Shown here in pieces: positions 3,020 through 9,208 of a stretch of DNA of 42,419 bases. The stretch's first letter is position 1, and each line of letters starts with the position of its first letter. The position numbers and the translations under genes were made by a program. This stretch comes from a virus: positions 1 to 42,419 of the IMG/VR virus record IMGVR_UViG_3300027746_000038; one strand, written 5' to 3'. The notes beneath the pieces are model-generated. The model saw only the letters and a list, made by a program, of their open reading frames with translations. It was not told the origin of the DNA and did not search any database.

Positions 3020-3320
3020 AGGTGCGTGATTATGGGGGAATATGTGAGTAACCATTAAAACTATGCCTGTCAGCCTCTCAGTCAACCAATTTTTTCTACC
3101 CTAAGCCCACCATAGCCCGCCACGGTTCTGAACCGAAACCTATATTCTGTTGCACTTTGTCACACAATATCACACTTTTCAGCACTTTTCCAGACCAGTG
3201 ACCTCACTGTATAGCTCTACACGCAAGATGGGAGTAGTCTACTCACACTAGACTGACAGTAGCTCAACTGTATATACACTATATACTACTATCTAGCACG
3301 GTGAAAAATAGTGTTCACGG

Positions 3321-5747: not shown

Positions 5748-6074
5748 ATGTTAACGATACAAGACGTGAACAAGGCTATCATGCTACAAGAGTGGACCAA
5801 CGTAGAGTTGAGTAGCATGATTGATGCAGTCAAGTGGAACAAGGAACAATTGGCCCGACAGATCAAACGTTCGATCAGCCGTGGCGATAACGTGGAGTTC
5901 ACATCCAGCAAGACAGGCAGGCTCACACGTGGGTTTGTAACCAAAGTGGCCATCAAGTATGTCACAGTGGACACGGGCATGGGTATGTGGCGGGTGCCAG
6001 CGAATATGCTGACAAAGGTTGAAGCTGATCCCCTGGACGACTTCAACTATGTGGGATCCAAGCATCACTATTAA
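5748..6074 (+). CDS. hypothetical protein, 108 aa
   Basis: Start set by GGAGCGAA (5739-5746), one base before the ATG; no promoter box of its own is seen, so it is read with the genes before it. The N-terminal half is helical (LTIQDVNKAIMLQEWTNVELSS). The C-terminal half reads like an SH3/KOW-type beta barrel (GDNVEFTSSKTGRLTRGFV, then KYVTVDTGMGMWRVP), a shape common in small nucleic-acid or ribosome-associated proteins. That is a fold impression only. Confidence 0.65.
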   Translation: MLTIQDVNKAIMLQEWTNVELSSMIDAVKWNKEQLARQIKRSISRGDNVEFTSSKTGRLTRGFVTKVAIKYVTVDTGMGMWRVPANMLTKVEADPLDDFNYVGSKHHY

Positions 6075-6106: not shown

Positions 6107-6135
6107 TTGACGAAAGAGTTGATTGGCGTTATAAT
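6107..6135 (+). promoter_or_regulatory. sigma70 promoter of the large noncoding RNA
   Basis: TTGACG 6107-6112, TATAAT 6130-6135, spacer 17. No ribosome site or reading frame follows; the expected start of transcription is about 6142. Confidence 0.8.
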
Positions 6136-6141
6136 AGAAAC

Positions 6142-6593
6142 AAGAAGAAAGAAAAAGCAAGGCGGTCCTCGAATGTAAGAACCCAGCAGAAATGCAAAAA
6201 GGGTTGGAACCAAGGGACACGGAGAGAGTTTGTAGACTCTGCCTAAGCAAACGAATTGAGGTTACCTAGACCACTAGGCGACTGGGATGACGACAGTACC
6301 GACGGGCGCTGGTCAAGTCCAGGAGCATGAAACAGGCGCAAGCTGGAATTGCGGTGGACAATCTAGGAGTAATGACCGTGCAGGCCTATACGAGACGTTC
6401 GTATAGGTAGACATAGATGCACAATGGTTCCTCTCCTTAAATCGCGGATAGGGTCAAGTGCGATCCTGTAGGGACAGCTATAGGCTGATCGCGTTATAAA
6501 CTCCTTACAAAACTTGCTAGTCGACCCGGGTGAGACTTCCCAAAACCCTCCCGGACTATCAATTGAGAGTGTTGTTTTTACGCAACACTCTTT
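6142..6593 (+). ncRNA. large structured noncoding RNA, about 450 nt
   Basis: Gene-free stretch with its own promoter and terminator and many helices. From 5': AACCC/GGGTT (6180-6184 with 6201-6205) enclosing GCA-GAAA-TGC (6186-6195); an AGAGT/ACTCT hairpin near 6227; CCTAG-ACCA-CTAGG near 6265; a CAGGC-GCAA-GCTG hairpin near 6333; a three-part arm of GTGCA/TGCAC (6378-6382 with 6418-6422) capped by a perfect 9-bp hairpin CCTATACGA/TCGTATAGG (6385-6407); CCTGTAG/CTATAGG near 6465; and CCGGG/CCCGG near 6527. Two GNRA tetraloops (GAAA, GCAA) point to folded RNA with tertiary contacts. It lacks the tRNA-like end of tmRNA and the conserved cores of RNase P, 6S and group I/II introns as far as can be judged by eye. 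Large ornate phage RNAs (GOLLD, ROOL) are the nearest concept; identity is not shown. Confidence 0.7.
6567..6593 (+). terminator. terminator of the large noncoding RNA
   Basis: GAGTGTTG (6567-6574) pairs with CAACACTC (6583-6590), loop TTTTTACG, followed by TTTG. The U-tract is short, so termination may be partial or the hairpin may define a processed end. Confidence 0.7.
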
Positions 6594-8361: not shown

Positions 8362-8379
8362 CCCAAACCGTGTTATAAT
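8351..8379 (+). promoter_or_regulatory. sigma70 promoter with inverted repeat
   Basis: TTGACG 8351-8356, TATAAT 8374-8379, spacer 17. CGGTT (8348-8352) pairs with AACCG (8366-8370). Confidence 0.85.
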
Positions 8380-8411
8380 ACACTTATACAAACAAACACA
8401 GGAGCGAACCT

Positions 8412-8713: not shown

Positions 8714-9208
8714 ATGGGTACACGTTCAATGATTGCTATACAGAATCCCTACAGCAAAGACGTCCGCGCAGTCTACTGCCACTGGGACGGTTACTTGGAG
8801 CACAACGGCTCTATCCTCAACAAGCATTACAGCAACAGCGCCAAAGTCAACAACCTCATAGCCCTGGGCGGCATGAGCAGCCTGCGAGCTGAGATTGGCG
8901 ACAAGCACGCCTTTAGCGAACATGAATTGCCTAAGGCAGAAGTTGAAGCGTTCAGAGCGGCAACCAAAGATATGTGTACGTTCTACGGACGTGACAGAGG
9001 CGAGACAGGACAGGAGTTCAAAGTGTTCCCTACACTGGCTAAGGCACAGGACTATTTCGAAGGCAGCTGGTGCGAGTACTTGTATGTGTTCAAATACAAA
9101 AAGTCAGATGACTATCAGTCAGGCGAATGGCACTTTAAAAAGCCGGGCGGGCGTTGGAAGAAACTTGCCCCAGCACTGGCCAAGCTCAAAGCAGAGGATT
9201 GCGCATGA
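8714..9208 (+). CDS. conserved phage protein (MGTRS...HWDGY type), 164 aa
   Basis: Member of a widespread uncharacterised phage family recognisable by its start MGTRSMIAIQN, the motif YCHWDGYLEHNGSIL at about residues 21-35, and NNLIALGGMSSLR. The conserved His-Trp-Asp-Gly suggests an active or binding site, but no activity is known to me. AAGGAGCAAAG precedes the ATG. The stop overlaps the next start (ATGA), heading a four-gene coupled group. Confidence 0.75.
   Translation: MGTRSMIAIQNPYSKDVRAVYCHWDGYLEHNGSILNKHYSNSAKVNNLIALGGMSSLRAEIGDKHAFSEHELPKAEVEAFRAATKDMCTFYGRDRGETGQEFKVFPTLAKAQDYFEGSWCEYLYVFKYKKSDDYQSGEWHFKKPGGRWKKLAPALAKLKAEDCA

Follow-up and report, generated by a model that had tools for sequence, protein, structure and literature searches.

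Three separately inherited structured RNA modules, one linked to tRNA arrays, in a noncoding locus of an uncultured phage

Background

Whether a noncoding stretch with a promoter at one end and a hairpin at the other specifies one large RNA or several smaller ones is the question raised by positions 6107-6593 of the IMG/VR virus record IMGVR_UViG_3300027746_000038, a genome fragment that was analysed over its whole length of 42,419 bases (called 'the window' below). In a first-pass annotation, read from the letters by eye, this region had been taken for a single ornate RNA, approximately 450 nt long and ending in a terminal junction, with a degree of structure typical of phage RNAs or ribozymes. 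What tRNA-associated phage RNAs do is a question of long standing: GOLLD and ROOL are structured phage or prophage RNAs of unknown function, often found near tRNA islands (PMC12286853), and RNA C and RNA D of T4 (species 1 and 2 RNAs) are small, stable RNAs of unknown role from the phage tRNA region (PMC3014915, PMC9697503).

The UvsX protein of the window was 74-95% identical to its counterparts in uncultured contigs (265-356 kb) bearing one or more of the modules described below (A, B or C); its identity to UvsX of the closest named phages (for example, Vibrio phage 2.275.O, CBB, GAP32 and Atu_ph07) was about 57-66%. The phage is thus probably an uncultured relative of jumbo phages, known from environmental DNA alone; because the window is only a fragment, the label 'jumbo phage' is taken from these relatives.

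Results and discussion

A noncoding locus with its own promoter

Small genes surround the region, and several of them have near-perfect sigma-70 promoters of their own. Only short, overlapping ORFs were found at 6107-6593 (the longest, on the minus strand in the ORF list, has 85 aa) and its homologues contain many indels, in agreement with the earlier reading of the region as noncoding. The promoter named in that reading was also confirmed, as a plus-strand sigma-70-type sequence at 6107-6135 (TTGACG at 6107-6112, TATAAT at 6130-6135, spacer of 17 nt) with 11 of 12 consensus matches. The terminator fared less well: a plus-strand, terminator-like hairpin read from the sequence is present at 6567-6590 (GAGTGTTG at 6567-6574 and CAACACTC at 6583-6590), and it would be a weak intrinsic terminator, since only a short T tail (TTTG) follows it, and it was not among the results of the terminator scan of the window.

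The folding energy of the region as a single sequence was modestly below that of shuffled sequences (z -2.2; 5 of 100). Folding energy alone is weak evidence, and the decisive evidence comes from covariation among homologues.

Homologues resolve the region into three modules

The first homologous loci were retrieved through the neighbouring protein (encoded at 5748-6074), and thus independently of the RNA sequence; they held parts of the RNA region in varying arrangements. Iterated nhmmer searches separated the region into three modules, A, B and C, and further homologues were collected by gapped-pattern scans of uncultured-virus contigs and by repeat searching. In total, 59, at least 154, and 20 homologous loci were found in uncultured-virus contigs for modules A, B and C, respectively. 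Some of these loci are overlapping stretches of one contig, and distinct sequences were therefore counted. Invariant bases that fell within the patterns searched for (in module B, for example, GGTTACC, TAGG and GTAATG) were excluded as evidence because they are partly produced by the search, and pairs that never varied were treated as neutral toward the fold; the loci fetched through the protein carry the same conserved bases as those from the pattern scans.

The three modules are contiguous in the window and in loci L017/L079. Each was also found apart from the other two, and in most loci the modules are apart or in other contexts. In locus L002, A and B are separated by a protein gene and by a promoter that serves B, and in locus L005 C lies 3.6 kb away from A-B, directly after the stop codon of a protein gene; together with the varied genes that follow A, these arrangements set the module boundaries. 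The single-sequence fold joins helices across modules, whereas the conserved helices are confined within A, B or C. Compensatory changes were found in the helices of all three modules, strongly backing the folds of B and C and more modestly that of A, so that the structured nature of the region, as proposed in the first-pass annotation, is upheld, while the single molecule of some 450 nt and its terminal junction give way to three modules that occur apart and beside different genes. That the region consists of three separately inherited structured RNA modules, and not of one large RNA, is nearly certain.

Module A, a putative portable leader behind promoters

Module A (6158-6244, plus strand; approximately 88 nt) is a putative portable 5'-leader RNA with a closing stem (6160-6163/6241-6244), a long arm (6165-6169/6214-6218, 6175-6184/6201-6210 and 6186-6188/6193-6195) and a hairpin (6225-6230/6235-6240). 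One of the two GNRA-type tetraloops noted earlier, GAAA, is located here (6189-6192). Among 33 distinct aligned sequences, 99.8% of the pair cells were standard, and 37 compensatory cells were found in six pairs (9.1 cells in shuffled controls). The sequences are approximately 91% identical, and compensatory changes were fewer than in B or C. A strict promoter pattern (TTGAC-N16..20-TAYAAT) was present within 90 nt 5' of A in 31 of 38 unique upstream regions (shuffled controls: none), with 10-22 nt between the -10 box and the start of A in these 31. Downstream of A lie B (in about half of the loci), tRNA genes, or various protein genes, the last with a ribosome-binding site and start codon approximately 24-30 nt downstream. 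A divergent A was found 5' of B in locus L008 (model E-value 9.6e-6). In alignment A2, two unpaired positions (approximately 6207 and 6234 in the window) tend to vary in concert, most sequences having G/T or T/G, and the long arm and the hairpin loop may therefore be joined by a tertiary contact.

Module B, a companion of tRNA arrays

Module B (6256-6435, plus strand; approximately 180 nt) contains eight helices: P1 (6256-6261/6430-6435), P2 (6262-6270/6362-6372), P3 (6271-6274/6354-6357), P4 (6278-6284/6320-6326), P5 (6296-6300/6305-6309), P6 (6335-6338/6341-6344), P7 (6374-6382/6418-6429) and P8 (6385-6393/6399-6407). P8 is the perfect 9-bp hairpin (CCTATACGA/TCGTATAGG) seen in the first reading, and it carries conserved loop nucleotides on top of a sequence-variable stem; the second tetraloop of that reading, GCAA, lies at 6337-6340. 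The module was described by model R1, which matched B of the window with 177.9 bits (E-value 7e-47), the window sequence having been included in building the model. In 76 distinct sequences aligned to R1, 91.6% of the pair cells were standard (65.5% in shuffled controls), 44 of 54 pairs were changed on both sides, 956 cells had both sides changed (309 in shuffled controls), and the covariation score was 0.514 (shuffled, 0.148; slid controls, at most 0.071). The R1 alignment is fitted to the structure, but the pairs agreed in a MAFFT alignment as well; columns 20/154, for example, held four pair types and columns 55/62 six, both in 44 of 44 sequences. P1 continues into the flanks, where native partners gave a mean of -18.6 kcal/mol compared to -7.8 kcal/mol for flanks swapped between loci; P1 of the window is short (four of six modelled pairs).

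The association of B with tRNA genes is established by its genomic context. Among the matches listed, about half of the loci place B within tRNA arrays, 50 of the 106 unique copies have a tRNA within 300 nt (expectation in these contigs, 25%), tRNAs near a copy share its strand in all 52 cases, and 13 copies lie exactly 15 nt 3' of a tRNA, which is tRNA-Glu in 12 cases. The 5' neighbour of the unique copies among the matches listed was A in 19 copies, a boxA-like leader in 25 and a tRNA no more than 60 nt away in 13, and in 32 copies a promoter without A or boxA lay directly 5' of B. The boxA-like motif (G[TC]TC[TA]TTAA[AC]A) sits behind promoters of phage tRNA arrays (for example, locus L154, approximately 8373-8385, and L208): out of 77 occurrences, 62 had a tRNA or module on the same strand no more than 300 nt downstream (such stretches make up 5.6% of positions), and 48 had a promoter just upstream. 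Special 5' leaders on operons of tRNAs or B are thus common, and the motif suggests that phages borrow antitermination of the rRNA type. The leaders of the operons that hold many relatives of B thereby resemble the boxA/nut leaders of rRNA operons; in contrast, a search of the window found no boxA-like motif, and A occupies that position.

Module C, a pseudoknotted RNA at the 3' end

Module C (6443-6555, plus strand; approximately 112 nt) contains a first pseudoknot stem (6443-6446/6490-6493), a hairpin (6450-6455/6462-6467), a stem (6468-6473/6503-6508) with an inner stem (6475-6478/6484-6487), and a second pseudoknot in which 6519-6522/6534-6537 crosses 6525-6530/6550-6555. In 14 distinct sequences, 93.8% of the pair cells were paired, 19 of 30 pairs, including some in both pseudoknots, were changed on both sides, and the covariation score was 0.460 (0.158 in shuffled controls). 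The first pseudoknot was misregistered by one alignment column in five sequences, in which direct reading pairs AUCGCU with AGCGAU. B, tRNA-Met or a stop codon lies upstream of C, and in most loci a promoter lies downstream, which places C at the 3' end. Taken with the next hairpin, C did not show the GC-rich hairpin and following U run of an intrinsic terminator, and a U run 3' of C is absent in most C loci. Hairpins resembling that at 6567-6590 also occur 3' of C in loci L017 and L104. Just 3' of C in loci L098, L151 and L032 there is a GC-rich hairpin (GGACGGGGC...GCCCCGTCC and similar), the counterpart of which in the window is AT-richer.

Comparison with known RNAs and distribution among phages

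No Rfam family (out of 4,227) was matched by the region at curated thresholds or at E-values up to 10, nor by A, B or C in the other loci at E-values up to 1; the output consisted of tRNAs and chance matches to unrelated families. The covariance models proposed earlier for a check (GOLLD, ROOL, HEARO, RNase P RNA and group I/II introns), and those of OLE, known ribozymes and riboswitches, likewise gave no match in the region or the other loci at these thresholds. A, B and C are accordingly structured phage RNA families absent from Rfam, and no description of them was found in the literature covered, which included few subscription journals or preprints. GOLLD and ROOL are comparable as phage-encoded structured RNAs, and B shares their link to tRNAs; they differ in sequence and model, and A, B and C are separable and of approximately 88, 180 and 112 nt, unlike the many GOLLD members of more than 800 nt.

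Whole-contig searches found one B each in six large contigs (G003-G007 and G009) and in the 174-kb contig G010, a single A in three large contigs, and a single C in one. The UvsX of G010 is only 27% identical to that of the window, and B therefore spans distant phage lineages. No accepted match to the models of A, B or C was obtained in T4, nine named jumbo phages and two bacterial genomes; the named records were scored under stricter filters, so that very weak relatives could escape detection. BLASTN with the whole region and with single modules against named phages gave none or chance matches only. B resembles RNA C and RNA D of T4 in its position in tRNA arrays; models R1, R2 and R3 found nothing in the T4 record, and unfiltered R1 gave chance-level scores over the T4 tRNA region. 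The C model scored 18 bits within the GroES gene of Pectobacterium phage CBB, a match that was taken as chance, and two pattern matches in cellular genomes were not upheld by the model.

A tentative reading and its rivals

The reading of structure and function that we favour, tentatively and at somewhat less than even confidence, takes B as a stable tRNA-companion RNA, A as a 5'-end module and C as a 3'-end module. Host sigma-70 RNA polymerase would read a short noncoding unit from its own promoter, the main product being B, as a stable species approximately 180 nt long that would belong with the phage tRNA genes. The tRNA association suggests that B probably aids the takeover or protection of translation by the phage, for example as a tRNA-processing, tRNA-protecting or ribosome-related RNA. 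The promoter-proximal and 3' positions of A and C, respectively, suggest cis-acting end modules. A would fold once the polymerase clears the promoter and act on the sequence downstream, either by shielding the 5' end or by conferring termination resistance on the polymerase in the manner of HK022 putRNA, a phage RNA of about 70 nt, of which putL maps just 3' of an early promoter and needs no protein factor to act on RNA polymerase (PMC9378689). A place at the transcript 5' end just behind a promoter, as for putRNA, was found for A in the 31 of the 38 upstream regions noted above. The comparison is one of position and similar size; A has a closed three-way layout, whereas putRNA has two stem-loops, and this likeness, as those to GOLLD, ROOL and the T4 RNAs, is an analogy. 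The two pseudoknots of C would block 3'-to-5' exonucleases from the transcript.

Several findings count against this reading. The main argument against general end modules is that A and C were single-copy in the large contigs that contained them (three and one, respectively), which is odd for general-purpose modules. In addition, about 30 copies of B stand directly behind a promoter without A or boxA, A gave fewer compensatory changes, and no protein partner was identified, TROVE/Ro being absent from the 10 module-containing virus records that were searched (several of them partial); the idea of a Ro/Y RNA was dropped for this reason.

The modules could instead be independent trans-acting small RNAs, co-transcribed by chance as promoter-driven cassettes reshuffle. 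A and B being single-copy where found, the occurrence of each module apart from the others, and the frequent position of B behind its own promoter would all be expected of such RNAs, but A lies right behind promoters and C last in transcripts with few exceptions, and A adjoins B in about half of the A loci, which makes this explanation possible but rather doubtful. A decoy or anti-defence role for B, for example as a lure, made together with replacement tRNAs, for host nucleases that cleave tRNAs during infection, would suit its place in phage tRNA arrays and the conserved loop nucleotides at the tip of the variable P8 stem; as B lacks a tRNA-like fold, we regard this as unlikely.

The two proposals closest to the first-pass annotation fit the data least. 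A single large ornate RNA would account for the contiguous A-B-C of the window and L017/L079 and for the long closing arm of the single-sequence fold, and is nevertheless very improbable, having been largely refuted by the modularity: in most loci the modules are dispersed, and all covarying helices lie within modules. A place among phage RNAs with a link to tRNA genes is supported, in contrast to the ribozyme half of the first-pass suggestion, for which there was no indication. Compact folds, the two pseudoknots of C and the differing positions among phages might speak for one or more modules being a self-cleaving ribozyme or a derived selfish element, but no ribozyme or intron family was matched and no conserved cleavage site was recognised, so that this can scarcely be credited.

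Significance

With at least 106 distinct copies, module B forms a structured RNA class that is widespread and tied to phage tRNA arrays. Since it occurs in phages with UvsX proteins as little as 27% identical, it is probably both ancient and beneficial. It adds an independent case with a well-defined fold to the question of what tRNA-linked phage RNAs do; A and C, for their part, are candidate building blocks for escorting transcripts and protecting their ends. It is conceivable, though on balance doubtful, that uncultured phages possess a modular system for untranslated transcripts, with a 5' escort or protection module, a pseudoknotted 3' guard and, between them, a new and widespread class of RNA working with tRNAs in the takeover of translation.

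Other candidate RNAs near the modules

Short unannotated RNAs of approximately 65 nt were observed among or beside tRNA genes (locus L154, approximately 8717-8787, and 3' of B in loci L006 and L010), with a closing stem of at least five pairs (GAGAGTC...GGCTCTC; GTCCC...GGGAC), like truncated tRNA-like elements. Candidate tmRNA-like genes (ARAGORN) lie approximately 0.4-1.5 kb from A or B in loci L057, L069, L070, L077, L134, L166 and L200, on tRNA-rich contigs. In locus L123 (approximately 3140-3275), B is followed within the tRNA array by a noncoding element with a long stem (TTATTTGTTTTGCTGA...TCAGCAAAACAAAT), which may represent a further RNA family.
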